Of a stretch of 64,000 bases of DNA, positions 1,310 to 33,830 are shown one piece after another. This DNA is from a virus. The stretch covers positions 1 through 64,000 of IMG/VR virus record IMGVR_UViG_3300020442_000005; one strand, given 5' to 3'. Positions within the stretch are counted from its first letter, which is position 1. Each line of letters starts with the position of its first letter. The position numbers were made by a program, and so were the translations under genes. The notes under the pieces were generated by a model. That model saw nothing but the letters and a program-made list of their open reading frames with translations, was not told the DNA's origin and searched no databases.

Positions 1310-2872
1310 ATGTTGTTTTTATTATCACTACTGGTGGGCTGCAGTGATATCAGTCTGGGTAAGATAGAGCAAAGAGAAGCTGAGATCCTTGTTCATCCTA
1401 CTCACATAGATTTTGGTAACCTAGTTTCTGGATTCGAATCAGACCAGAAGTCATTCACGGTAATAAATACAGGCGATGATGATTTAATAATCACGTCGCC
1501 ATTTTTATTATCTGGTGAGGACAAATTCGCTATCGACGATTCAGGAGAAGAGGATATAGTTGTAGCAGCTGGAGAGCTTGTAGAATTCCATGTTACATAT
1601 ACTCCAGAAACGTTTGAGCATAACTCTGGAATGATTGAGTTTCTATCGTCCGATGAAGACGAACCAGAGATACAGGTATCACTTGAAGGTTTCGGAGACG
1701 CTCCAGTCATGACTGTGGATCCAGTCGACTTTGACTATGGCGATATATCGATAGGGTGCGATAACGAGGAAAGAATAACGATAACAAATGATGGTAATCT
1801 ACCGCTTACCATTGATAGCGTAGTTCAAATGGTTACTCAGCCGGCAGACATTGTATTGGAGTTTGGATCATTACCAGATCTGCCATGGCATTTAGATCCA
1901 GGTCTCAGTGTTGATTTCTTAGTTTCATATATACCCAACGACGTCGGGCAAGATGATTCTATAATTACAATTGCCGGCAATGATCCATACACCCCGGAGA
2001 TCGAGGCAATTCAATATGGCTCTGGTGACGTTGAACAATATTATTCTCAACGTCATATTCAGCAAGAGATACAGGTTCTAGATATTCTATGGATCATCGA
2101 TGATAGCGGATCGATGAATCGGGTTCAGTCTAATCTTTCTGGCAACATGCAAATGTTTATGAATGTTTTTGTTCAGTCACAGGCAGATTATAGAATGTCT
2201 GTTATAACAACATCAGATCCAATGATATATCAGATCGTTGATGCCACAACCCCTAACGCGACTCTGACTATGCAACAGATGGTTTCGGTTGGAGTACATG
2301 GCTCTGGTGTTGAAATGGGTCTAGAGATGGCTTACCAAGCTTTAAACGATGTAACAAGTGCTGGTCCTGGTGGTAGCTTTTTTCGAAACAATGCAGACTT
2401 AGTTTTGATATTTGTTTCAGATGAACCTGATCATAGTCCTGAACCAGTTTCATATTATACGTCGTTCTTTTCTGGATTGAAGCCTTCCGGTATGTTTTTT
2501 CCATATGCGGTTATTGGCGATATGCCTGGTGGATGCTTAATGCCAACCATGTTTGGAAACTACAATGTCCAAGCCGGTGAAGGATACTGGGATGTAGTTG
2601 ACTACTTTGGAAGCCAATGGTTTTCTCTGTGCGCAACCGACTGGGGAAACCAGTTACAGAATCTTGCAAACAACATTACCGGTCAATGGTCATATGAGCT
2701 ACATGAAAGTGATCCAATAGAAAACACAATCGAAGTGTATGTTAATGGTCAGATAGAAACTGGGTGGGTTTATAACCCTGCTAGAAACACTGTTGAGTTT
2801 ACAGAGGGTAACATACCCGAACCTGGTGACACAATTGAAATTAACTACGCTTTATGGGGGTGCTATGAATGA
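1310..2872 (+). CDS. Lipoprotein with ASH-type repeats and a von Willebrand factor A domain
   Basis: 520 residues. A short signal sequence ends in the lipobox LVGC (Cys11), predicting lipid anchoring in the envelope. Two immunoglobulin-like ASH/choice-of-anchor-D-type units follow (about 30-125 and 135-235, with HIDFGNLVSG and DFDYGDISIG starts). A VWA domain begins at about 258 with an intact MIDAS DDSGS (D264, S266, S268). The C-terminal part resembles a small beta domain (EVYVNGQIETGW). This architecture is typical of cell-surface proteins of Myxococcota and Bdellovibrio-like bacteria and unusual in a phage, which suggests capture from a host. The start at 1310 has AGGGAG nine bases upstream; another ATG at 1306 is out of frame. 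Confidence 0.75.
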   Translation: MLFLLSLLVGCSDISLGKIEQREAEILVHPTHIDFGNLVSGFESDQKSFTVINTGDDDLIITSPFLLSGEDKFAIDDSGEEDIVVAAGELVEFHVTYTPETFEHNSGMIEFLSSDEDEPEIQVSLEGFGDAPVMTVDPVDFDYGDISIGCDNEERITITNDGNLPLTIDSVVQMVTQPADIVLEFGSLPDLPWHLDPGLSVDFLVSYIPNDVGQDDSIITIAGNDPYTPEIEAIQYGSGDVEQYYSQRHIQQEIQVLDILWIIDDSGSMNRVQSNLSGNMQMFMNVFVQSQADYRMSVITTSDPMIYQIVDATTPNATLTMQQMVSVGVHGSGVEMGLEMAYQALNDVTSAGPGGSFFRNNADLVLIFVSDEPDHSPEPVSYYTSFFSGLKPSGMFFPYAVIGDMPGGCLMPTMFGNYNVQAGEGYWDVVDYFGSQWFSLCATDWGNQLQNLANNITGQWSYELHESDPIENTIEVYVNGQIETGWVYNPARNTVEFTEGNIPEPGDTIEINYALWGCYE

Positions 2873-3387
2873 CTTTAAAAAATTGTATGCTTATTTTGGG
2901 TGTAGGAATACTTGGCTTTGCGTTAGGTATCTCCGGCAAATACATATACGAAAGTTCCTCCGTGCACGCGTACCAGTGGAAAACACCTCCGATAATAATT
3001 AATTGCTACGGTGAAGACTTTAGCCAAACTGCAATGATAAGAGCAATACACTATTGGACCGTAAGAGGATATCCAATTGGATTTTACGAACACAATCCGC
3101 CACCCTCCGTTTGTGAAAACGATTGGCTTTATGGAATGATTATTATACGTAAGGCTCCACTTCTCAAGCTGGCACCAGAGACTCTTGCTTCAACGAGAAG
3201 ATATACTGCTTTAAACGAGATGCGTGGTGCCGTTATAGAGTATCGCCGCGGGTCTTACAACCTTGACCTTTTAAACGAGCACGAACTTGGACACGCCTTG
3301 GGTATGACCCACGTTGAAAGGCCTGGTCATATCATGCATCCTATTTACGACCAGATGGGTGAACTGTTCGATCTCAAAAAGAAATAG
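2869..3387 (+). CDS. Membrane-anchored metzincin-like zinc metalloprotease
   Basis: 172 residues. An N-terminal hydrophobic segment (about 5-24) acts as a signal anchor. The extended zinc motif HELGHALGMTH (H138, E139, H142, H148) is the HExxHxxGxxH signature of metzincins, and a downstream HIM about ten residues later is consistent with the Met-turn. The domain is small for the family. It overlaps the upstream lipoprotein gene by ATGA, so both are probably exported and made together. Substrate unknown; peptidoglycan-associated or surface protein cleavage is possible. Confidence 0.75.
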   Translation: MTLKNCMLILGVGILGFALGISGKYIYESSSVHAYQWKTPPIIINCYGEDFSQTAMIRAIHYWTVRGYPIGFYEHNPPPSVCENDWLYGMIIIRKAPLLKLAPETLASTRRYTALNEMRGAVIEYRRGSYNLDLLNEHELGHALGMTHVERPGHIMHPIYDQMGELFDLKKK

Positions 3388-5480: not shown

Positions 5481-8108
5481 ATGTCTATACCAGACAGTAA
5501 AAAATTAAGAAAATATATAACGCAATTATTGAAAGAGCATATGCTACTCGAAGCCGCCGGTTCTATGGGTTTGGCAGCTGTACTTGCACGTGCCTTAGCC
5601 GACAAAATACTTGACGACGTCGATCGAATTGGCTTTGTATACATAGTTCAAAAACATAATGCACAATCGCGATGCAATATACCACTACTAGACGTCGTTG
5701 AAGATTTGGTGAAAAAAGACCAAGTTATAGCATTGAAAGTGCGTCCAAAGAAAAAGGAGTATAGCGTTATTGCTACTAGCTTCTCCAAGCGCATGTTGCC
5801 GAATGAGTTAGGCGCAGATAACGCAATTTTCGTGCAAAGCATAAGAAATCATGCATATCAGGATTACCCGGGCGATGCTATTGTATTGGGCAACGCTTAT
5901 TTTAACGATGTTAAAATCCCGGGATCGGGCGCGCATGGTTTAAGAAAGGAAGATTTAGACAAATTTGAAGCTATAGGGAATGATTTCCTTTCGAAGTACG
6001 TTAAATCCGCAGAGAATGAAAAGAAGATTCTCGAAGTGTTCGAATCCGTGGGCGCAGTTGGTTACTTTGCAGCTGCATTTATGGTATTTATAACCCAGGC
6101 CGAATCTGATGGCTCTCGTGGCCACGTATCCAGCTTATCGGCCACAAGCATGGGTGGAAAGCTAGTTATTGGTACCAATGCAATGACAGTTACAGCTGAG
6201 ACAACTGGCATATGGAATATGGGTATGTCATTTTTTTCGAATGATCAAATAGAACACATTAAAAAATCCATGGACTTACCTATCGGTCTTAACGTACCTA
6301 TAACAGTATCTCCAAAGCAGAGTTTTAATAATTTATCTAAACAAATGGTCGCATTTGACGAAAAGTTTCGTAGGATTATCGCTAGCAACACGACCTATAT
6401 ACACGAGTTGCAACACTTGATTCAACATGCCGGCTACCATACGCCATCTTCACAGTTAGATCCAGGCGCCGACGTCGACATAACCTCACCAACGCACCCG
6501 CTACATCCCTATAATGGTGACCCTCCAAACACTGCCGCAAGAGAAGCTGGTCTTGCGAAATCAAAAAGACCACCAGCCCAGCATATAAAGATTGTGTCTC
6601 AGATGCTAAAAGAACTGAACATAATAAAAGGTGAAGAAATAAAGATTTCCGGAATCAACAGCCCAGCATTCGAACTGGATGACGCAGCATTTTCATCCAC
6701 TACTATCGGGCTGTCGACAAGCATCTTTGTTAAAGAAAATGTATATCTAGAAGTGAACGTCGCCGATCACTTAAGTGATGTAGTTTTAAAACACATGTCG
6801 GATACGTATTTATCGGCACTTCCGTCAAAAAACATGTTTCCCGAGGAAAGAGAGGCTCAAATAAAAAGGTATGGTTCTGCAGCCGGGAAAAAATCGGTTG
6901 CAAGAAAATATCGTTTATTTCTAGCCGATATTCTTGCAGATATTGGAATATACACTTATCAAAAGTACATTTTTGATCGTACGGATCAAATAAAGGCTGA
7001 TATGGGGATTGGACCAAGAGATAAAACTATACCCGACGCATTAAAAGTCGCCTCTGAAAGGTTTCCGGACAGAACAGAAAAGGCGATCGAGCGTTTAAAT
7101 AAGTCTTTGTTAAATAAAGGCGGTAAACTATCAAAAGATTTAATCGAAAAAATGCGACCTGTATTTCCAACCATGGTTTTTTATTCGCGTAAATTGGGCG
7201 TTTTTATAGGTAAAGGTAAATACGGCCCACCCGGATGGATTAAGCAGCACCTATATATTGAATTCTTAGAAAATTATGATATAGACGAAGATCTATTGAA
7301 TGAGTTGAAAAAAGGGTCTGAAGACAGATATTATCTAAGTAAAAACCAAAAAGACCTAGGTCTCAGGTTATTAAAAGAGTTGGATTTAGTTTTGGTGATT
7401 GCACAGTCAGGTGCCGATACAGCTTTCATGGGTGAAGATGAAAGGCTTGAAGCAGAGGCCGGCCGGTCAGGCCGAGTAAGCCGAGGATATGCTTATTCAG
7501 GCTCACAATGGTATCAAAGGGCTAATGGATACACATGGCGAAGATTACAGACAGAATATGACGCTGAGTTTGTGACACAAACAGCTGGTTTTTTGTATGG
7601 CATCTATATACTAGGCACAGAGGACGATGCAACCGCAAATCGTATTTTAGCTCCAACGTATCTTATGGATTATTTTAGGCGATCTCCAAAGATTCAGCCT
7701 ATGATCGAGTTTTTGTTTGCATTGCTTGGAGAAGATATTACAAAGGTAATATCTGGTATAAAAAACTTTTCCAAGAAATCTAGACACAATTTCCAAGGAT
7801 TTATCGATCGCGATTTAGCAAAACAAAAGTCTGATCAGTACCGACGTTTGGCGATTGACATGATAGATAAGATTCAAAATATATCAGACGAAGAATTGAA
7901 TGACTTGCGAATAGATATAGCAAACAATAGCGTGGAAATGATATACGGTTCTAGAACAAAAAAAGCTACTCCAAAGCAAATCAATGATTTAACACCTGTA
8001 ATTAATGAATTTCTTGCAAGTGGAGGCTCGGTCGACCGCTTAACTCATTTACATGTAGAGACTGTAAAGGCTATAATAGGATTCGTTGGTAAAAAACTAT
8101 TGGAGTAA
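5481..8108 (+). CDS. Large HELQH-motif protein with N-terminal targeting signature
   Basis: 875 residues from the ATG at 5481, which follows GTGGAG by seven bases; the frame stays open further upstream but without a good start. The N-terminus has a basic amphipathic helix then HMLLEAAG, so L-L-E/A fits an (I/L)xE cleavage site. HELQH (308-312), followed by another His at 316, is a zinc-metallopeptidase-type HExxH motif in a helix. No family is recognised over the rest. If packaged and cleaved it could be an injected protease or virion enzyme; this is inference. Confidence 0.65.
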   Translation: MSIPDSKKLRKYITQLLKEHMLLEAAGSMGLAAVLARALADKILDDVDRIGFVYIVQKHNAQSRCNIPLLDVVEDLVKKDQVIALKVRPKKKEYSVIATSFSKRMLPNELGADNAIFVQSIRNHAYQDYPGDAIVLGNAYFNDVKIPGSGAHGLRKEDLDKFEAIGNDFLSKYVKSAENEKKILEVFESVGAVGYFAAAFMVFITQAESDGSRGHVSSLSATSMGGKLVIGTNAMTVTAETTGIWNMGMSFFSNDQIEHIKKSMDLPIGLNVPITVSPKQSFNNLSKQMVAFDEKFRRIIASNTTYIHELQHLIQHAGYHTPSSQLDPGADVDITSPTHPLHPYNGDPPNTAAREAGLAKSKRPPAQHIKIVSQMLKELNIIKGEEIKISGINSPAFELDDAAFSSTTIGLSTSIFVKENVYLEVNVADHLSDVVLKHMSDTYLSALPSKNMFPEEREAQIKRYGSAAGKKSVARKYRLFLADILADIGIYTYQKYIFDRTDQIKADMGIGPRDKTIPDALKVASERFPDRTEKAIERLNKSLLNKGGKLSKDLIEKMRPVFPTMVFYSRKLGVFIGKGKYGPPGWIKQHLYIEFLENYDIDEDLLNELKKGSEDRYYLSKNQKDLGLRLLKELDLVLVIAQSGADTAFMGEDERLEAEAGRSGRVSRGYAYSGSQWYQRANGYTWRRLQTEYDAEFVTQTAGFLYGIYILGTEDDATANRILAPTYLMDYFRRSPKIQPMIEFLFALLGEDITKVISGIKNFSKKSRHNFQGFIDRDLAKQKSDQYRRLAIDMIDKIQNISDEELNDLRIDIANNSVEMIYGSRTKKATPKQINDLTPVINEFLASGGSVDRLTHLHVETVKAIIGFVGKKLLE

Positions 8109-9007: not shown

Positions 9008-9366
9008 GGGGCCGTAATGGCTTCGACGGGGTAGAATCAAGAGGAGTGTGCATGCAGGTAAGATACGACCTTAACAGTTCAAAACAAATAGTTGCAAACA
9101 ATAACGACAACTTCGAAGTAGCTTTAGCTGCATAATCGACGCCGGTGTCTCTTCCGGTGTGAAACAAGAGGCTTAGCCAGTTAGTCGAGGCAAACATATC
9201 AAGACTACAATGGTTATCCTGGTAACAGGTGGAATCTCCAGCCAGAGGGAGATTGGTGGAAAATTATTTGGCTAGTTTGTTAATTAACAACATAATTAAC
9301 TATGCATGTGAATGACACAAATTAAGACTGCTGCGGACGCGGGTTCGACTCCCGCCGGCTCCACCA
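9008..9366 (+). ncRNA. ssrA: tmRNA (transfer-messenger RNA), one-piece form
   Basis: The 5' end GGGGCCGTAATGGCTTCGAC is the classic tmRNA start. The 3' end has the T arm GCGGGTTCGACTCCCGC and an encoded CCA. Bases 9008-9014 pair with 9356-9362 as a seven-pair acceptor stem with one G-U. The tag frame runs from a resume GCA at 9094 to TAA at 9133-9135 and encodes ANNNDNFEVALAA, ending in the ALAA degron read by ClpXP-type proteases. It would rescue stalled ribosomes. It lies 13 bases after thymidine kinase; no SmpB gene is seen in the window, so it must use host SmpB or one encoded elsewhere. Confidence 0.95.
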
Positions 9367-9388: not shown

Positions 9389-9661
9389 ATGAAAATTACG
9401 AGAAGCCAACTAAGAAGAATCATTAGAGAATCGTACAAATACAAAGATCCATACCCATCTCGCCGGAGACAGCAAAAGAAGCAGAATTGGGTAATTGTGT
9501 GTGATTGGACACAACATTCTGATCCTTCAAAGCATAAGTATGGCGAAGCTGTATATGCTGAATATTTTGGCACTAAGAGAGATGCTGAACGTAAGGCTTT
9601 GCAATACGCAAGGGAAGAACATGCACCAATGTATGTTGAACCAGGTTTTGAAGAGGGCTAA
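9389..9661 (+). CDS. Small basic protein with N-terminal targeting signature
   Basis: 90 residues. It begins MKITRSQLRRIIRESYK, the signature of the following genes, with an I-R-E/S site. The body contains WVIVCDWTQHS, a possible single-domain beta fold, and no motif I can name. It starts 23 bases after the tmRNA and heads the run of tagged small genes. Confidence 0.7.
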   Translation: MKITRSQLRRIIRESYKYKDPYPSRRRQQKKQNWVIVCDWTQHSDPSKHKYGEAVYAEYFGTKRDAERKALQYAREEHAPMYVEPGFEEG

Positions 9662-9662
9662 G

Positions 9663-9962
9663 ATGAAACTAACAAAACGCCAACTTCAATTAATTGTTAG
9701 AGAATCTCTTGTAGAAGCTTACGAAAAAACTGAGTATATTCAAGCAGGTCTTGGTGAAAGGTACAGAATGAAAGAAAGTATGGATATGGATCCCTCGTTC
9801 TATGCTGATGTATCGGAACGTTATGATGGAGACATAGCCTATGAACGCGTCATGGCAGTAATTGAGGTTTTAGCAGCATATCCCGCCGCACATTCATATT
9901 TAGATATAGAGGACGTTGCGAGCGAAATCATCGACTCACTAGAAGAAAAAGGTTTAATTTAA
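9663..9962 (+). CDS. Small acidic protein with N-terminal targeting signature
   Basis: 99 residues from the ATG at 9663, one base after the preceding stop, with GAAGAGG upstream. The frame is open further 5' but the signature MKLTKRQLQLIVRES fixes this start. An L-V-E/A site follows at about residues 17-19. The remainder is acidic and helical. Function unknown. Confidence 0.7.
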   Translation: MKLTKRQLQLIVRESLVEAYEKTEYIQAGLGERYRMKESMDMDPSFYADVSERYDGDIAYERVMAVIEVLAAYPAAHSYLDIEDVASEIIDSLEEKGLI

Positions 9963-9991
9963 CCATAAACATAAAGTCATAGAGGAAAACA

Positions 9992-10249
9992 ATGAAAATC
10001 ACAAGAAGACAATTGAAAAAAATCATTAAAGAAGAGAAAGCAAAACTTATACAAGAGGCACAGTACGGAGGCGGACAGTACGGTTTACGTAGTGATGACA
10101 GAGCCGGACAGCAAAAAGCAATTGAGATCGCATTAGCTCATTTGCAAATGCTTGATGACGCATTGTATGAAGCCGGCATTGAAGTTGGAATGGGTCAACT
10201 TAGAGGTATAGTGATGGATGCATTGAATCACCCAACATCCGGATATTAA
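9992..10249 (+). CDS. Small protein with N-terminal targeting signature
   Basis: 85 residues, start MKITRRQLKKIIKEEK with the candidate cleavage site L-I-Q-E/A at about residue 22. The mature part begins with a Gly/Gln-rich stretch (QYGGGQYG) and continues as a predicted helix. RBS GAGGAAAAC upstream. It is followed by the next gene through a TAATG junction. Confidence 0.7.
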   Translation: MKITRRQLKKIIKEEKAKLIQEAQYGGGQYGLRSDDRAGQQKAIEIALAHLQMLDDALYEAGIEVGMGQLRGIVMDALNHPTSGY

Positions 10250-10251
10250 TG

Positions 10252-10557
10252 ATGAAAATCACAAAAAGACAACTTCGAAGAATTATTAAGGAAGAAAAAT
10301 CAAAGATTATGTCGGAGGCTTTTGGAAGTCCATCCGGCAAAGATTTTGGCTTATATGATCAGATTCAAGAAAAACTTGAATATGAACTATTGATTAATAT
10401 TCAAAGTCAAATATTAAATACTCTTCCTCCTGCAATTCGTCGTACCATTGATTTAGGAACAGAAGCAGAGATGATGGGCTTTGATGATTTAATGGAACAA
10501 GTCCGAGAATGGTTTGAGAATTATGTATCGGCGATGACAGATCTGGATCGGAGATAA
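10252..10557 (+). CDS. Small protein with N-terminal targeting signature
   Basis: 101 residues. Two ATGs in tandem (10249 and 10252) are possible starts; I chose the second because it gives the family's MKIT beginning, while the first overlaps the upstream TAA. The signature MKITKRQLRRIIKEEK is followed by I-M-S-E/A at about 18-21. The mature part is acidic and helical with no recognised domain. Confidence 0.7.
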   Translation: MKITKRQLRRIIKEEKSKIMSEAFGSPSGKDFGLYDQIQEKLEYELLINIQSQILNTLPPAIRRTIDLGTEAEMMGFDDLMEQVREWFENYVSAMTDLDRR

Positions 10558-10560
10558 ACA

Positions 10561-10980
10561 ATGAAATTAACAAAAAGACAACTTCGAAGAATTATTCGTG
10601 AAGAAAAGAAAAGATTGATCAAAGAAAGCTCTATGGAGTTGTCATATCAATACGCAGAGCAATTGCTGCAAGATGCCGCCCGTGAATTAGCCGATAATTT
10701 TAGCGAGGGTCAATTAGGCAATGGTGCGCATGACGCCAAAATGAACGGCGAAAATGCGCTCTATGAATTACTGACTCTAGCTGCAATGAGAACAAGAGGG
10801 TTAATAGAACATAAGAAAAAAGCAAATTTGCTCAACGAGTATATTGATCGCGATTATCTCTTAGATCGTCTCATGGAGGTACTCATTGAAGAAGGCGCAG
10901 TTAAACCGGGGCCGGGTGCGCGTGATGATGCTTTACAATACTTAGGTTTCTTAGTCAAGGTATATGACAGAGGCAGATAA
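10561..10980 (+). CDS. Small helical protein with N-terminal targeting signature
   Basis: 139 residues. MKLTKRQLRRIIREEKKR is almost identical to its two upstream neighbours and is followed by L-I-K-E/S. The rest is predicted helical, with many Ala and Leu and charged faces. It starts three bases after the previous stop. No function recognised. Confidence 0.7.
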   Translation: MKLTKRQLRRIIREEKKRLIKESSMELSYQYAEQLLQDAARELADNFSEGQLGNGAHDAKMNGENALYELLTLAAMRTRGLIEHKKKANLLNEYIDRDYLLDRLMEVLIEEGAVKPGPGARDDALQYLGFLVKVYDRGR

Positions 10981-10981
10981 A

Positions 10982-11533
10982 GTGAAGATAACTAGAAAAC
11001 AACTAAGACTAATTTTAGAGACAGCTGCTAAGCAAAAAGATAAAGAGGCTGTGTTTTCAATTATATACACTTCGGCATATGTCCAAGAATATATGGAAGA
11101 TCTTTATAATGCCATATGGTCCTCTTTTGAAAATCGCGGCGAACAAGATGATTATAAGATTGTTAATGTACTTGAAGATCTAACTAGCATGCTTACAAGA
11201 CCGGTCATGGACTTGGGATCTGAATACAGCCTATACACAAAAGAATTGGATGCTGCTGATGATGAGGGAATAGAATTCGAAGCCGGCAATGCCGAAAAGT
11301 TCGATTTCGAGGAAAGTGTTTATCTGGGAATAGAGAATATTAATCGCTTTATTAACGAACAGACTCCGATGGGAATGAGCGCGCTTGAAGCATTAAGGCA
11401 TGTTAAAGATCGTAAGATCAATATCGGATTGATTAAAAGAACTACAGATTTTTTACTTTCTCTAATGGATGATGATAGAGTCTTATCTGTTCTTGACCAA
11501 ATCGATTATGAGTATCAGAGGATGAAGATGTGA
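10982..11533 (+). CDS. Acidic protein with N-terminal targeting signature
   Basis: 183 residues from a GTG start at 10982. The frame could begin at 10964, but only the GTG places the signature (VKITRKQLRLILE/T) at the N-terminus, so the signature decides the start. The protein is strongly acidic and helical (ELDAADDEGIEFEAGN). Its TGA stop overlaps the next GTG start. Confidence 0.65.
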   Translation: MKITRKQLRLILETAAKQKDKEAVFSIIYTSAYVQEYMEDLYNAIWSSFENRGEQDDYKIVNVLEDLTSMLTRPVMDLGSEYSLYTKELDAADDEGIEFEAGNAEKFDFEESVYLGIENINRFINEQTPMGMSALEALRHVKDRKINIGLIKRTTDFLLSLMDDDRVLSVLDQIDYEYQRMKM

Positions 11534-12450
11534 TCACTAACGGTAACGTACTTTATATATTTGATTTCGATGATACTTTAGCAATGACTAATAGCGCAGT
11601 TCGCGTTATTAGCGCGTCAGGCCAGGTAAAAAGACTTGATAGCAGAGAGTTTGCTAAATATCGATATCAAGCAGGTGATCAACTAGACTTTTCAGAGTTT
11701 ACTCGAGCTGAAGGAACATTGATCGATAACACAGTACAAGAGATGCAAGAAGCAATTTCCCGGTACGGGATAGAAAATGTCTTTATTGTAACAGCCCGGG
11801 CTGAAGATGAGCCTGTGTTTAACTTTTTAGACTCTTTTGGGCTGGTTGTGCCTCAGGTGATCGCAACAGAAGGTTCAGCCGGAAAAGCACCATGGCTAAC
11901 AAAAACCCTTCTTTTGGGAAATTACGACAAAGTGATCGTTTATGAAGACTGTCGTAAAAACATAAAAATGCTCAGAGATGTTGTAGAAGCCTACAACGAA
12001 GAATTAAATAGAGAAGTACTGTACAGTGCAGTATGCATTTTACCGGATGGTAGACAACAAATGATTGAATCAAGAATTAGAAGGTTTGTAAGAAAAATTA
12101 TTCTAACAGAAGGAGTTAGAAATACAACTCAAGGCGCAAATGCGATTATAAACGTCATGTTGGATAATCCAGACTATAGTATTCGGAATGCTGCAGCTGA
12201 CGTATTTTGGAACTTTGAACAGCTTGGAAACCGCCGAGCTGCTCGATTTCATAGGGCTTCTATGGATAGGGTCGGCGAACAGATACAAAAACGGCTAGCG
12301 AAGACTGGAGCTGATCCACATAATCAACCAGAAGGGTTTGTGTATACGCCAGAAGAAAAAGCGCTAGTCGATCTATACCATAGCCGGGTTCCTACGAATC
12401 AACACGGTGAGTACGGCATTAAACTGGCTGATTGGAGAAAATTTAGATGA
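11530..12450 (+). CDS. HAD-family phosphatase fused to a tagged C-terminal domain
   Basis: 306 residues, GTG start in a GTGA overlap. The N-terminal half (about 1-175) is a HAD hydrolase: FDFDDTL (D11, D13 region), VTARAED as the motif II Thr, and YEDCRKN as the acidic motif, similar to polynucleotide 3'-phosphatase-like phage proteins. It resembles the second HAD gene at 31.9 kb. Around residue 178 comes MIESRIRRFVRKIILTEG, a copy of the targeting signature with an L-T-E/G site, followed by a 110-residue helical domain. It may be a fusion, or two products from one gene through an internal start. Confidence 0.7.
   Translation: MITNGNVLYIFDFDDTLAMTNSAVRVISASGQVKRLDSREFAKYRYQAGDQLDFSEFTRAEGTLIDNTVQEMQEAISRYGIENVFIVTARAEDEPVFNFLDSFGLVVPQVIATEGSAGKAPWLTKTLLLGNYDKVIVYEDCRKNIKMLRDVVEAYNEELNREVLYSAVCILPDGRQQMIESRIRRFVRKIILTEGVRNTTQGANAIINVMLDNPDYSIRNAAADVFWNFEQLGNRRAARFHRASMDRVGEQIQKRLAKTGADPHNQPEGFVYTPEEKALVDLYHSRVPTNQHGEYGIKLADWRKFR
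12061..12450 (+). other. Possible internal in-frame start giving a tagged 129-residue product
   Basis: An ATG at 12061 lies in the frame of the HAD gene exactly where the targeting signature (MIESRIRRFVRKII) begins. GGATGG stands about ten bases upstream and is only a weak RBS. If used, it would yield a free signature-bearing protein of the same size class as its neighbours. Confidence 0.3.
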
Positions 12451-13457
12451 GAGCAAAAAAAGGCGAATGGTTTAGTTTGTCTTGGGATATAAATGATAAG
12501 TATGATCCAATAGCTTGGGAACAGTTTAAAAATTGCCCTAGATTTCTTTATGCCGAAGAAAATAGTAATCAGGTTGAAGGAAAAATAATTAATGAGTTTG
12601 ATAGACTTAGGCTTACTAGTATTTTTCTTACTTCAATGTTTCTTAAAAACGAAGACGGTCTTAAAGTACCCACTCATTACAGAGTAGGAATATTTATGCC
12701 TGGAGACAACACAGCCTATGATAAGTGGATAAAGGAATACCACAGATTGAATCACGAGGTAACAGAGCAAATCCGTGCTAAGGAAATGTTACAACAAAAA
12801 AGTATATACCTAGAGCATGCTGCTAGAATCATCAGGCATGATATGCATTCAGGAATAAATACCTACATTCCTCGAGGTTTAAAATCACTGCTAGATAAAC
12901 TGCCGGAAGAGGTAATCAAAGAGCACCGTCTAGAGCTAAGCATTAAATTATTGGAAGAGGGCTTGAATCACGCTCAAAAAGTATACCAAGGAGTGTACGC
13001 ATTTACGAATCTAGTAAAAGACAAGTCTCAGATAGAGAAACAAAAACATAACATCAAAGACATCCTGGTTGAACATTTTAGTTCGAACGCTTACGGTCAT
13101 CTAATTGACATACAGGACATGGGTGATTTCTATGTTAATAAATCACTTTTTTGTACAGCTATTGAAAATTTTGCAAAGAACGGTTTAGCATACAACGATT
13201 CAGGTCCAGACAGAAAGGTTAGAATTTACAGCAGATATGTAGATGAAATAACAATTGCTGATAACGGCCGCGGATTAAGTCAACAGGAATACGATTATCA
13301 AACAATGCCTTTCTTGAGAGAAGAAACAAACAATGTGAATCAAATAACTGGATTGGGCATAAATATAGCTAACGCCATCCTAGTAGAACATGGCTTTAAA
13401 GTGTCAGTCGATGAACTTGAACACGGCACTGCAATTCGAATCACGATGAAAAATTAG
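12447..13457 (+). CDS. Sensor histidine kinase (cytoplasmic)
   Basis: 336 residues. A non-transmembrane N-terminal region of about 115 residues precedes an H-box RHDMHSG (phospho-acceptor H131), a dimerisation helix pair, and an HATPase_c domain with N-box ENFAKNG (N241, N245), G1 box DNGRG (272-276) and G2 box GLGI (302-305). All catalytic motifs are intact. The H-box region YLEHAAxIxRHDMHSGINTY is nearly identical in the next gene, so the two arose by duplication. ATGA overlap with the HAD gene. Its input signal is unknown. Confidence 0.85.
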   Translation: MRAKKGEWFSLSWDINDKYDPIAWEQFKNCPRFLYAEENSNQVEGKIINEFDRLRLTSIFLTSMFLKNEDGLKVPTHYRVGIFMPGDNTAYDKWIKEYHRLNHEVTEQIRAKEMLQQKSIYLEHAARIIRHDMHSGINTYIPRGLKSLLDKLPEEVIKEHRLELSIKLLEEGLNHAQKVYQGVYAFTNLVKDKSQIEKQKHNIKDILVEHFSSNAYGHLIDIQDMGDFYVNKSLFCTAIENFAKNGLAYNDSGPDRKVRIYSRYVDEITIADNGRGLSQQEYDYQTMPFLREETNNVNQITGLGINIANAILVEHGFKVSVDELEHGTAIRITMKN

Positions 13458-13466
13458 GCCAAAAAA

Positions 13467-14744
13467 ATGTTAACAAAAAGATCCAAAGCGTGTTTAACCA
13501 TTTCGCTGTCCGTGATGGCAGGATTTTTTATTGAGCAAACTCTGGTTATTTCTGGTTTTGTTTTGCCATCATACTTCTCTGCTCTTTTTGGATACGCATG
13601 CACTATTTTGTTTACTGTGTCTTTTATATGTTTTGCAATCGATTTTTTATATACAGTAAAATCAAAAAAGCAAATTTATGATGACAAGTTAGCAGCGATC
13701 CATACGTCTAACATGGTTGCAATATATGATAACGAGGGCTTGATAATTTCAGCAAACCAAAATTTTTGTGATACTACCGGTTACAGCAACTCTGAGCTCG
13801 TTGGTTCAACCCACTGCATGGTTATGCCAAGAGAATTGATTAGATCAGAAGAGTACAGATCATTTTGGGAACAATTGAACCGGGGCATTTTCCTTAGAGG
13901 TAAATATAGACGACGAAAAAAATGTGGCAACGACTATTGGTGTTATGCAACATACAGCCCCATTCGCAACGGATCTGGAAAAGTTTATCAAATAATCGAA
14001 ATATCGTCGGACGTCACAGAAGAATATTTAGCCCAACAAGAACTTGCTCACAAAAACATATACCTAGAACACGCAGCCAAAATTTTAAGACACGACATGC
14101 ATTCCGGTATAAACACGTATATCCCGCGCGGAATTCGTAGTCTAGAAAGACGAATTAATCAAGATGTCATCGATGAGTTACATATTGAGTCACCTTTAAA
14201 ACTTATAAAGGAAGGCCTTCTACATGCACAGAGGGTTTACAGAGGGGTTTATGAATTCACAAACCTGGTAAAAAAAGATGCAGAAATGCAAAGATCAAAA
14301 TATGATCTTAAATCAATCTTGGAAGAATACATATCTAAAACAGCGTACGCTGACCAAGTTATTATTGAAGAGTTGATTAATCTTGAGGTTAATGAGGCGT
14401 TATTCTGTACTGCAATAGATAACTTGATCAGAAATGGATTAAAATACAACGATTCAGTGTCAAAACTTGTAAGAGTAAAAATGCACGACCAGTCTCATAT
14501 TGCGGTAGAAGACAACGGCCGCGGATTATCTCAGAAAGAATTCGAAGAGTTTTGCAAGCCTTACCAACGCAAAAAAGGTCAAAAGGAACCGGGTTCTGGC
14601 CTGGGATTAAATATATCAGTCGCAATATTTAATGAGCATGGCTTTAGAATGTCGATTGATGAATTGCAACAGGGAACAAGGATTCTTATTCAACTAAACG
14701 AAGATTATCTAGATGATTGCACATTGATAAGAAATTTAAAATAA
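13467..14744 (+). CDS. Membrane-bound PAS sensor histidine kinase
   Basis: 425 residues. Two transmembrane segments (about 10-30 and 37-62) with a very short external loop precede a PAS domain (about 76-185, with NFCDTTGYSNSELVG and ISSDVTEE), then the same kinase core as the upstream gene: H209 in LRHDMHSG, N-box DNLIRNG, G1 DNGRG, G2 GSGLGL. With little extracellular part, it probably senses a cytoplasmic or membrane signal through PAS. It lies nine bases downstream of its paralogue. Confidence 0.88.
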   Translation: MLTKRSKACLTISLSVMAGFFIEQTLVISGFVLPSYFSALFGYACTILFTVSFICFAIDFLYTVKSKKQIYDDKLAAIHTSNMVAIYDNEGLIISANQNFCDTTGYSNSELVGSTHCMVMPRELIRSEEYRSFWEQLNRGIFLRGKYRRRKKCGNDYWCYATYSPIRNGSGKVYQIIEISSDVTEEYLAQQELAHKNIYLEHAAKILRHDMHSGINTYIPRGIRSLERRINQDVIDELHIESPLKLIKEGLLHAQRVYRGVYEFTNLVKKDAEMQRSKYDLKSILEEYISKTAYADQVIIEELINLEVNEALFCTAIDNLIRNGLKYNDSVSKLVRVKMHDQSHIAVEDNGRGLSQKEFEEFCKPYQRKKGQKEPGSGLGLNISVAIFNEHGFRMSIDELQQGTRILIQLNEDYLDDCTLIRNLK

Positions 14745-14785
14745 TTTCATATATTTATATTCGTGGATCTTTGTTGGAGTTTGTA

Positions 14786-15217
14786 ATGATAAAGTCGATA
14801 CTTTTAGTTGATGATGAAAATTTATTTCATCTTGTTTTTGAAGATGCTTGTAGCCTGCTTGATATAACCTTGGATCTGCGCAGCATTACATCATCAGATG
14901 CTGCAGCAAAACTTTTTGCCGAGTGGCAAAACGACCCAAAAGGCAAACCAGAATGTGTTTTCGTTGATTTAAATATCATAGGATCATCATTTGATGGTAT
15001 TGAACTTATTAAAAAAATTAACTATGAATATGGCAATGGCGTTGTTGTTGGAATCATATCATCTTCTGCTGACCAAGCCGAGATAGAAAAATCAAAACTG
15101 GCAGGATCCCAATTTTGGATTATTAAATCAGATGATATCGAACCCAGATTAGAACTTTTTAAGAACGATTATGCTGGATATAAAAACCGCACTAACGAGT
15201 TCAAAGTATATCGATGA
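14786..15217 (+). CDS. Stand-alone response-regulator receiver domain
   Basis: 143 residues from the ATG at 14786 with TTGGAG upstream. The receiver residues are in place: D9-D10, phospho-acceptor D61 (VFVDLN), S92-S94 and K114 (FWIIKS). There is no output domain, so it probably works like CheY or Spo0F, by binding a partner or relaying phosphate. It directly follows two kinases and overlaps the next gene by ATGA, which indicates one signalling operon. Confidence 0.85.
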   Translation: MIKSILLVDDENLFHLVFEDACSLLDITLDLRSITSSDAAAKLFAEWQNDPKGKPECVFVDLNIIGSSFDGIELIKKINYEYGNGVVVGIISSSADQAEIEKSKLAGSQFWIIKSDDIEPRLELFKNDYAGYKNRTNEFKVYR

Positions 15218-19481: not shown

Positions 19482-20507
19482 ATGGTATCATACAGCTTGG
19501 TTTCAAATACTGGCTCTCAGTTAGGATTGATTGATCAACAAACTATTTTAGAACAAAAGCTAGCTGATTTTTGGGATTCACCGTATGAAATACACCAGTT
19601 AAACGAATATTGTGAGCTGGTTTGCGAAGGTGATTTGCTACTTGAGTTTAGTCTCAAAGATTTTGTTATGGAACATCTGGTCAACGTTCTGCAGGCCTCA
19701 ATTGGCGCAGCGCTAGAGGCTGGAATAACCATTGGGACCGCTGGAGTGGGAACTGGTGGTGGTGTTGTTGCTGAAACTTTAAACGATCTTATATTCTTTG
19801 GATACTCTGTTGGTGACTTTGTAGTATCTGCCAAGGGTATATTTTCGGACTTGATGGAACTCAAGGAATTGTTGATTGAAATATTTAGTACCTCTATCGA
19901 AGATGAGCCGCAAGACATATACGACGCGGTACAGGAAGCAATTTCAGGTGCTGGTGATTTAATCAACCGTTTAGGTTTTGATTTTGATGAAATGATGGAA
20001 AAAATAACAAATGCATTTCAGTCACTTACAAAAAAAATCGCTAAGCCAGCCGGAGATATGATTGCGATTTTTAGCCCTGTACCAGGCACTGATGCCGCCG
20101 TACAAACGTTTATGAGTGAATTTGCGGATGATGCATTTAAGCTGTTTATAGAAAAATACGATTTAATTCCTGATTGGCTTAAAGAACTTTTACATGATCC
20201 AGATAGTTTACTCAATTTCGTCGAAGAAGGAATTGACGCCACTGTTAATTTTCTTGATGATATGATGAATACATCTGCAGAAGAAGCAGAGTCTCTGCTC
20301 GGTGCGATCGCATCCATAGGCCAAGATATTACAAATCCAGTTCTTGCAGTTCTTAAAAGAACGGGTCATGTCGAAAAGCTAATTAAATTTCTGAAAGGAG
20401 CTGCACTTGATGCCGCCGAATTTGCAGTTGAAACTATAGAAAAAATATATCCAATTATGATGGCTGGATTATCCGCATTGACTGTTATAACCACTGAAGA
20501 TTACTAA
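19482..20507 (+). CDS. Hydrophobic-helix protein, possible membrane-active virion protein
   Basis: 341 residues. A Gly/Ala-rich stretch (about 70-105: ASIGAALEAGITIGTAG, then GTGGGVV) resembles a membrane-inserting hairpin, and the rest is acidic amphipathic helix. A DLLLEFSL sequence at about 50 contains an L-L-E site. Proteins of this build are sometimes injected or pore-forming phage proteins; that is a guess. Its stop overlaps the next start as TAATG. A TATAAT at 19456-19461 precedes it without a clear -35 box. Confidence 0.5.
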   Translation: MVSYSLVSNTGSQLGLIDQQTILEQKLADFWDSPYEIHQLNEYCELVCEGDLLLEFSLKDFVMEHLVNVLQASIGAALEAGITIGTAGVGTGGGVVAETLNDLIFFGYSVGDFVVSAKGIFSDLMELKELLIEIFSTSIEDEPQDIYDAVQEAISGAGDLINRLGFDFDEMMEKITNAFQSLTKKIAKPAGDMIAIFSPVPGTDAAVQTFMSEFADDAFKLFIEKYDLIPDWLKELLHDPDSLLNFVEEGIDATVNFLDDMMNTSAEEAESLLGAIASIGQDITNPVLAVLKRTGHVEKLIKFLKGAALDAAEFAVETIEKIYPIMMAGLSALTVITTEDY

Positions 20508-20818
20508 TGTCTAAACTACGTGAAGAGATTGGTCGCAATTATAGTACGATTGACCTGGATTTTAACAAGCCATACAGCATGATGGACAACACCGACGTTG
20601 ACGTCAACATGTTTGCAATGGACAACGGTAAATGGTCAGCTGAAGTAAAATGCATAAGTAACCCAAAGCTATCAACGCACATGAGAATCTTTAATGACGA
20701 AGCATCTGCGAATCATTGGGCAAGAATGCAAGTCGATCGCATAACAAGAAAGACCATGAATGAAAGTAAAATACGATTAATGGTAAGAACTGTTCTAAAA
20801 GAGCATTTTAGCCTGTAA
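20507..20818 (+). CDS. Small unknown protein with a C-terminal signature-like helix
   Basis: 103 residues. The body contains WSAEVKCISNPKLSTHMRIF, a possible small alpha/beta fold. The last 16 residues (KIRLMVRTVLKEHFSL) resemble the targeting signature seen elsewhere at N-termini, including L-K-E-H as in the 875-residue protein. TAATG coupling with the upstream gene. Confidence 0.55.
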   Translation: MSKLREEIGRNYSTIDLDFNKPYSMMDNTDVDVNMFAMDNGKWSAEVKCISNPKLSTHMRIFNDEASANHWARMQVDRITRKTMNESKIRLMVRTVLKEHFSL

Positions 20819-21543: not shown

Positions 21544-22035
21544 ATGGCAAGAAGAAAACGTTTGGCCGGCATTTCTAGAAGTGAAATACGTGAAGCCATC
21601 AAAAACATCAAGCAAGAAGAGTCGGCTGAAGAATGTGTATCTGACACTAATTCAGCTGACATTCGTCCAAGTCAAGAATGGCGATCTGAGAAGATTCGTG
21701 CTAGAAAAGAAAAAATGCATCAAATGAGACAGGCTAGCCGTGAATTAGATTCTATCGTCAGATCAGAGTCAGTTGATGAGGTAACTCACATCGTCAGACA
21801 AAACTTCATCAGTGAAGGTGACATGGTCACATGGCGAAGTCGACCACAGATCATAAGAGAAGGTGAAGACCATGCCGGTGAAAAGTTTGGACTTGTGCTA
21901 GAAACAGAGGATTATGTCCATGAACGTTATCCATCTGGTACTCCAAAACGTATCACTAAATGTCATAAAGTCACAGTTCTCGTTGGTTCAACTGTTGAAG
22001 TTTGGCCGGCTAAAGCTGTAAATGTTTGTGAATAA
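21544..22035 (+). CDS. Basic N-terminal helix plus SH3-like domain, unknown function
   Basis: 163 residues from the ATG at 21544, with ATGGAG upstream. The N-terminus is very basic (MARRKRLAGISRSEIREAI) and slightly recalls the targeting signature. The C-terminal 70 residues (EGDMVTWRSRP, GLVLETE, KVTVLVGSTVEVWPAKAV) show the G-D-x-V / G-x-V / V-E-V pattern of the small barrel proteins elsewhere in the window. It might bind nucleic acid. Confidence 0.55.
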   Translation: MARRKRLAGISRSEIREAIKNIKQEESAEECVSDTNSADIRPSQEWRSEKIRARKEKMHQMRQASRELDSIVRSESVDEVTHIVRQNFISEGDMVTWRSRPQIIREGEDHAGEKFGLVLETEDYVHERYPSGTPKRITKCHKVTVLVGSTVEVWPAKAVNVCE

Positions 22036-33053: not shown

Positions 33054-33830
33054 ATGAGATTGAATGAAAGAAGATTAAGAAGGGTTATTAGAGGCCTAGT
33101 TTTAGAATTTGTGTCACAAATCCCACAGCCGCCGCCGGCATTAGAAAAGCTGCCTGGATATGCAAAAAATAAAGAGATGAATATCTTCAATGATTTGCAT
33201 GACCTTGCTAACAGCGCATTGCGAGACGAAGTTTTCAAACCAATTGATGATTCATATAGAAAGGGCCTCGATCAACCAAACGCAGATATCCAAGAGCCGG
33301 ACCACCTAAGAGATCCAGCTAGAAACGACTACTCGGAGTTTCTAGTTTGGGACATTGATGATGATCCACATCCAGACGTAATCCGCGGAATGAAACCAAA
33401 GGCTGGATACATGAAGTTATCTTTAAGCGCAACGGATCTAAGTCGAGAAGCAGGTTTATACTCTAAGGCTGATACGGTCGCGCGACTCAAGGACGGCCGG
33501 CATTTTGCAGAAATGAGTGGTCCCGCAGCTGGTGTTGCAATGACCGCTGGTGTAAAAGCTATTTTAGATCCAGAAAAAGTTCAAGAGTTACTCGGAAGTA
33601 GAAAAAAGATTCAATGGTTTGGAGTACATCCACACGATCAAGGTCATCCGGATTTTCAGGATAAAAACTCACGCCTCGAGGCAGAAGGCGCAAGAAGAAA
33701 ATCATCGGCAGATTACAAACCAGAAGATGAGACGGTACGGACGCCTGGCATGTATGATGGATGGTATGTACGAATGCTCGGCATGCCACCAAAGCCACAT
33801 GCTAAAATGATTTTCGGTGAAATAAACTAA
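33054..33830 (+). CDS. Putative virion protein with N-terminal targeting signature
   Basis: 258 residues. MRLNERRLRRVIRGLVLEF is a variant of the signature with the arginine pair and hydrophobic core kept; the cleavage site would be L-V-L-E/F, a weaker match. The body has no domain I recognise but contains LVWDIDDDPHPDVIRG and GVHPHDQGHPDFQD, rich in His and Asp, as in metal-binding folds. RBS AGAG upstream. Confidence 0.6.
   Translation: MRLNERRLRRVIRGLVLEFVSQIPQPPPALEKLPGYAKNKEMNIFNDLHDLANSALRDEVFKPIDDSYRKGLDQPNADIQEPDHLRDPARNDYSEFLVWDIDDDPHPDVIRGMKPKAGYMKLSLSATDLSREAGLYSKADTVARLKDGRHFAEMSGPAAGVAMTAGVKAILDPEKVQELLGSRKKIQWFGVHPHDQGHPDFQDKNSRLEAEGARRKSSADYKPEDETVRTPGMYDGWYVRMLGMPPKPHAKMIFGEIN

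Follow-up and report, generated by a model that had tools for sequence, protein, structure and literature searches.

A short N-terminal peptide shared by dozens of unrelated proteins of a T4-like giant phage, most likely a removable head-packaging label

The first 64,000 bases of the 273,025-base virus record IMGVR_UViG_3300020442_000005, referred to here as the window, contain an array of small genes whose products share a short peptide, termed here the tag. In six consecutive genes, beginning at positions 9389, 9663, 9992, 10252, 10561 and 10982, the tag is N-terminal and follows the pattern MK(I/L)T(R/K)xQL(R/K)xII(R/K)E, while the seventh gene of the array (11530–12450) encodes a HAD-like protein in which the tag-related sequence is internal, at residues 181–194. 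The gene at 537 also fits the pattern well and that at 33054 more loosely, and the gene at 5481 is its loosest member. A preliminary description of this DNA had stated that seven consecutive genes and those at 537, 5481 and 33054 begin with or contain the peptide, most continuing to one of the sites IQE/A, IKE/S, LVE/A, ITE/S, LLE/A, LTE/G and ILE/T; all of these genes carry it and every listed site is present. A regular expression for the motif matched nine times in the six reading frames of the window and not once in the reversed sequence, and two further copies were found, a C-terminal one at 20756–20815 and a weak one at 21571. The same removable peptide appears to be attached to dozens of unrelated proteins, of which this genome encodes about 33, within a large, mostly marine group of T4-like giant phages, and it is most likely a head-packaging label that is cut off by the phage’s own protease. 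The tag, its modularity, its sites, a protease and a capsid protein encoded by the same genome and a related helix in two core genes can be read directly from the DNA.

All copies in the window whose coordinates are given below lie on the plus strand, and a slash marks the predicted cleavage site. The best profile match is the 90-residue protein at 9389–9661 (MKITRSQLRRIIRE/S; E 1.7e-11), whose body has a homologue in L082 behind a longer tag ending in ISE/Y. It is followed by proteins of 99 residues (9663–9962; MKLTKRQLQLIVRE/SLVE/A; E 3.2e-9), 85 residues (9992–10249; MKITRRQLKKIIKEEKAKLIQE/A; E 1.2e-7), 101 residues (10252–10557; MKITKRQLRRIIKEEKSKIMSE/A; E 9.5e-9), 139 residues (10561–10980; MKLTKRQLRRIIREEKKRLIKE/S; E 1.9e-8) and 183 residues (10982–11533; VKITRKQLRLILE/T; E 4.3e-8). 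The last of these probably begins with GTG, a start codon used by three tags in this genome. The internal tag of the HAD-like protein (12070–12111), read as MIE/SRIRRFVRKIILTE/G, is placed between the HAD-like part and the C-terminal part. Outside the array, tags begin a 231-residue protein at 537–1232 (MKVTRRQIREAIRRVITE/S; E 1.7e-7) and a 258-residue protein at 33054–33830 (MRLNERRLRRVIRGLVLE/F; E 1.7e-8), and the C-terminal copy at 20756–20815 (MNE/SKIRLMVRTVLKEHFSL; E 1.7e-6) belongs to the protein at 20507–20818. A homologue of the protein at 537, 50% identical, starts with 14 residues that have diverged (MKALRQMVRMILLE/N), and the two bodies are collinear directly after the site, so that both body and LLE/N site are kept despite divergence of the tag. 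The weakest member, an 875-residue protein at 5481–8108, was recognized by reading its sequence (KKLRKYITQLLKEHMLLE/AAGS) and falls below the profile threshold; a search for relatives found none, and there was no match in the PDB. It contains a HELQH (HExxH) motif and is possibly a metallopeptidase.

The preliminary description had proposed a search of the full genome and of other phage genomes with a profile of these N-termini, and such searches established that the tag is widespread. A profile from nine copies found 34 places in the 273-kb genome, and a 29-row profile found 33 at E values up to 0.05, the tag profile being built on the peptide MKITKRQLRRIIKEE...; the copies cluster at about 9.4–11.5, 116, 132.4–134.4, 170–178, 211–213 and 237–240 kb. 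When IMG/VR was scanned with a degenerate DNA pattern, 106 stretches matched, and these stretches together with capsid-gene loci yielded 582 tag copies of at least 14 bits, compared with none in reversed proteins. Twelve other large records hold 8–42 copies each, and a 484-kb uncultured huge phage has a variant, MRLTERRLKKIVKEE, in 14–16 copies. A tblastn search of cultured phages with the bare 28-residue consensus gave no match, a result not counted as absence, as the simple-sequence filter may mask the tag; profile searches of whole records served for that purpose. Among 84,980 cellular species genomes there were only seven matching stretches, spread over five contigs from four metagenome-assembled genomes; these contigs are most likely misplaced phage DNA, because one of them and an IMG/VR record are both 101,404 bases long. 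The contig NHDW01000006.1 (305,838 bases; L274, L277, L278), assigned to a Methylococcaceae genome, matches the tag ten times and probably represents the genome of a giant phage that was misbinned.

The consensus of 525 distinct copies is M-K-I-T-K-R-Q-L-R-R-I-I-K-E-(E/A/S), with 96% fixation at residues 8, 12 and 14; V can stand at residue 1, usually where translation starts at GTG, and conservation fades out at about residue 22. Codons differ at the fixed residues (TTA, CTT, CTA or TTG for L8; CAA or CAG for Q7; AGA, CGA or CGC for R), and it is therefore the peptide, rather than the DNA, that is conserved. An AlphaFold model of one tagged family places a helix at residues 5–16, followed by a low-confidence linker at 17–24 and then the body.

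The protein bodies behind this common start are highly diverse. As the preliminary description had held, they are unrelated to each other: no related pair was found among 32 bodies of this genome, and 535 bodies fell into 266 clusters, 205 of them singletons. Searches of Pfam, NCBIfam and PHROGs for body function recognized almost nothing; 92 long bodies gave one match to a Zeta toxin/AAA kinase and a few others that were weak or unnamed, and some other bodies match unrelated PHROG families. For one body family a structure model (predicted local distance difference test score, pLDDT, 78) had no convincing fold match in a viral library. One family occurs behind tags of 14, 22 and 26 residues, with SV(A/T)D always directly after the E (VKITKRQLHRIIKEEKAKLLRE/SVAD, MKITKRQLRKIIKE/SVTD and MKVTKNQLRRIIREEKAKLQKKQLKE/SVTD). 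The many tagged genes in tandem arrays, as would arise by duplication, and a loose body cluster of 125 members obtained by single linkage could be taken to mean that all tagged genes belong to a single old family in which the bodies diverged past recognition while the N-terminus was best conserved. The number of clusters and singletons, the kinase-like member and the others in unrelated PHROG families, the same body behind tags of different length, and the presence of tags also inside proteins and at a C-terminus argue against such descent, which is considered highly improbable.

The preliminary description had made its reading depend on a gp21-type protease, and a Peptidase_S77 gene of this type is present at 125487–125936 (E 1.3e-27), inside a T4-type head module; the same genome encodes a gp23 capsid protein. 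An S77 gene was found in 15 of 24 tag-bearing records and, the present genome aside, in all 13 of those of at least 140 kb; gp23 was found in all 16 checked. For scale, a relative of this gp23 occurs in 2529 of 50,697 cultured phage records, or about 5%. T4 gp21 cleaves after L/I-x-E (PMC9026906). In the present genome, [LIVMF]xE with a permissive next residue follows 32 of 32 tags, compared with 13–32% of 20-residue body windows, and among 455 non-redundant tags the same combination follows 80%, compared with 17–19% of equal body windows. The pattern that appears most telling for a cleavage site is compensation between two positions. When residue 15 is E, the early site would be disabled, because I-x-E14 then meets E, and 70% of such tags have another LxE ending at residues 20–23; when residue 15 is A, S, G, T, N or Q, a second LxE at 20–23 occurs in 5%, i.e., at background. 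Counted as E at residues 17–30, the difference is 242 of 284 tags with E at residue 15 and 54 of 126 others (Fisher 1.5e-17), so that a single good site per tag is essentially the rule. The tag site is followed by Q, S, A, G, M or N, which resembles what follows the capsid cut site and is unlike the L, E, A or I that follow LxE in bodies. Capsid proteins of the clade have a fixed L-R/K-E at about 57–59, the next residue being A in 24, Q in 14, S in 12, T in 4, V in 3 and Y in 1; the comparison with the major capsid protein thus found sites of the LxE type in both, with similar next residues.

These observations bear on whether the peptide is removed at all. It might instead be an unremoved docking helix for some other assembly, such as RNA polymerase, a replication complex, a membrane or the phage nucleus, with LxE as a by-product of an amphipathic helix. 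Basic amphipathic helices do often bind proteins, nucleic acid and membranes, and cleavage of the tag is so far deduced from sequence. An unremoved helix would leave without explanation the compensation between the two cut positions and the capsid-like residues after the site, among which the Leu and Ile frequent in bodies are missing. Moreover, nuclear import in nucleus-forming phages reportedly operates without conventional terminal signals (PMC13282480). Together with the core-gene match and the inner tags with sites on the body side described below, these points make an unremoved helix improbable, and removal by the prohead protease is preferred.

A possible origin of the tag emerged from the head module. 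In 82 capsid-gene loci, all surrounding proteins were grouped into 22 conserved families, whose whole alignments were compared with the tag profile. It matched only two of these 22 head/tail families, the next best having E 0.024. Both are small core genes, and the ten relatives inspected have them between the protease and scaffold genes; that at 126392 matched with E 1.3e-5, in register over all 22 columns, EILxE/G among them, and that at 126898 with E 1.7e-4. The tag is probably the N-terminal helix of what are likely core proteins, placed on other proteins, which would provide a simple reason for prohead targeting, and this exclusive match to two genes next to protease and scaffold is a further point against a helix docking elsewhere. 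The capsid gene is directly followed by five tagged genes (132.4–134.4 kb). The N-terminus of the major capsid protein (FTLNQLTEGIRQR) looked like a relative of the tag by eye; the resemblance was not significant (P 0.13–0.28).

The two core genes also raise the question of whether tagged proteins serve scaffold or core assembly only, as structural core components that are lost by degradation or expulsion when the head matures and never reach the host. The genes with the same helix encode probable scaffold-associated proteins, and in T4 the head loses most of its core fragments (PMC9026906). A conserved structural core would not be expected to comprise dozens of unrelated bodies in each genome, some of which are enzyme-like (HAD, kinase), and LxE sites are not dense in the bodies. 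A role confined to the core is accordingly considered unlikely, although less so than the two alternatives above, and retention of the bodies in the head is favored.

Two side observations concern the same module. A small gene resembling ribosomal protein bS21 (G000 128337–128555; L011:337–555) belongs to the head operon, with the core genes on one side and the scaffold on the other, is found in several relatives as well, and is annotated RpsU at the corresponding place in Microcystis phage Mel-JY01. The related tag-bearing records G001, G003 and G015 (L291/L296, L293/L297 and L284/L295) each have two adjacent full gp23 genes.

Tags are not confined to N-termini, and at least 32 open frames have two or more. 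E-S or E-G occurs within six residues upstream of 20 of 26 inner tags, compared with 19 of 316 (6%) first tags when the DNA is read upstream in frame. It also precedes nine of the 13 inner tags that have no start codon, and is therefore not a translated ribosome-binding site; a Shine-Dalgarno sequence as its source is ruled out by these codon-less cases and by the 6% at first tags. The HAD-like protein of the window shows the same two-sided layout, MIE/S-helix-LTE/G, as the 20 of 26 inner tags of its relatives, i.e., a site on either side of the helix, which would not be expected of a helix that stays in place. Outside the window, the protein at G000 177983–178276 begins with two tandem tags, a long one running to LLSE/S and then a short one, RLTVSQLRRLIRE/A.

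The system most similar to this one is the capsid-targeting sequence of T4 (in IPI, IPII, IPIII and Alt), which has 10–19 residues with targeting and cutting as separable parts (PMC9026906). Like the tag, it is a short N-terminal propeptide on unrelated small proteins that ends in L/I-x-E and is cut by gp21, in a phage with a gp21 protease and a gp23 capsid. The preliminary description had likened the tag to this sequence as a head tag cut by gp21. Function, sites and protease are supported by the present analysis; kinship in sequence was not found, and the tag may therefore act like the T4 sequence without being a member of its family. It differs in being a basic helix of 14–27 residues that is common to two conserved core genes and occurs also inside polyproteins and at C-termini. 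There are 8–42 tagged genes per genome, compared with three internal proteins in T4; at least ten internal proteins have been reported across T4 relatives (PMC12373910). Processing after Glu by a prohead protease is likewise known for many head proteins, among them ejection and inner-body proteins, of the giant phages phiKZ and SPN3US (PMC9026906), which belong to other phage lineages; the likeness considered here is one of processing. The gp23 studied here is closest to those of Flavobacterium phage immuto, uncultured huge phages, Microcystis phage Mel-JY01 and RM378, which places it in the Far-T4 neighborhood. A description of Far-T4 phages does not mention internal proteins or a targeting peptide (PMC4360716); the tag profile found no copy in the RM378 record and only two weak ones in immuto (immuto35A_176 and _190), the nearest isolate. 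No published account of the tag was found among the titles, abstracts and passages retrieved with peptide strings or with searches on capsid targeting. The principle is known from T4, whereas the sequence, the scale, the core-gene helix and the two-sided inner tags appear to be new.

Taken together, we consider it very probable that the tag is a modular head-targeting propeptide, which would act through core docking and cutting by the S77 protease, the body being retained and probably injected. From the features described above we infer the following course. The first 14–15 residues, a basic amphipathic helix (predicted at 5–16), would dock the cargo onto the assembling prohead core, which would include the two small proteins with the same helix (126392 and 126898). 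A short flexible linker with an (I/L)xE site follows the helix, and after shell closure the prohead protease would cut there, so that the tag is lost and the body kept in the head. Any protein could become cargo by acquiring an N-terminal tag, and apparently also an inner one, in a fused polyprotein, or a C-terminal one, with cut sites always between tag and body. Like the internal proteins of T4, the bodies would then probably reach the host along with the DNA. The three internal proteins of T4 are injected and inhibit type IV restriction enzymes (PMC12373910), and a counter-defense role is therefore plausible for the bodies here. The more far-reaching proposal, that in a large clade of uncultivated giant T4-like phages one universal self-removing tag loads tens of unrelated proteins per genome into the head, two-sided inner and C-terminal tags included, and so provides a readable set of injected effectors, is given about an even chance.

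Several observations weigh against this interpretation. No virion proteomics of any tag-bearing phage was found, so that presence in the head and new N-termini stay inferences. The tag profile had no match in the T4 genome and nothing significant among T4 head proteins; a likeness to the T4 core protein gp67, suggested by eye, came with no significant score. The bodies are mostly acidic (86%, median charge −7), unlike the basic internal proteins of T4. Homologous pairs with unequal tag lengths were in exact register at the cut site in only six of 25 cases, the others having variable residues at the tag-body junction. T4-type late promoters were sought before tagged genes and rejected, as 20 copies of TATAAATA were found versus 16 expected, none near a tagged gene. 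C-terminal copies of the tag are few, and the ES before them may cap the helix instead of marking a cut. Finally, the tag records share ancestry, so that p-values such as that for compensation overstate certainty and indicate large effects rather than exact probabilities.

Other features surround the tagged genes. A phage-encoded transfer-messenger RNA (tag peptide ANNNDNFEVALAA) lies at 9008–9366 on the plus strand, directly 5′ of the array. Directly behind the array, also on the plus strand, two histidine-kinase-like proteins and one response-regulator-like protein, recognized by eye, are encoded in a row at 12447–15217, and the protein at 2869–3387 (plus strand) contains HELGHALGMTHVERPGH, a matrixin-type zinc peptidase signature. 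Elsewhere in the genome, one tagged protein (L013, minus strand; G000 213087) includes a CWKxxKxVGMKKKGxxxVPNCVP module that is shared, with up to 82% identity, by about 200 cyanophage records. The cyanophage copies were examined as possible cargo behind a T4-type tag; they lie instead inside long multi-module proteins, which decides nothing.

Little is known of which proteins giant phages deliver as infection begins, and virion proteomics has been needed until now to find out. If the interpretation of the tag is true, the likely cargo lists of hundreds of uncultivated phages would become legible from sequence, and more than 500 proteins, whose function is almost wholly unknown, would become candidate injected proteins. 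The tag would be a second transferable packaging tag, unrelated in sequence to that of T4, and would provide evidence for its identity with the helix at the N-terminus of a prohead core protein. With this finding, the question of what giant phages inject can be tested directly.

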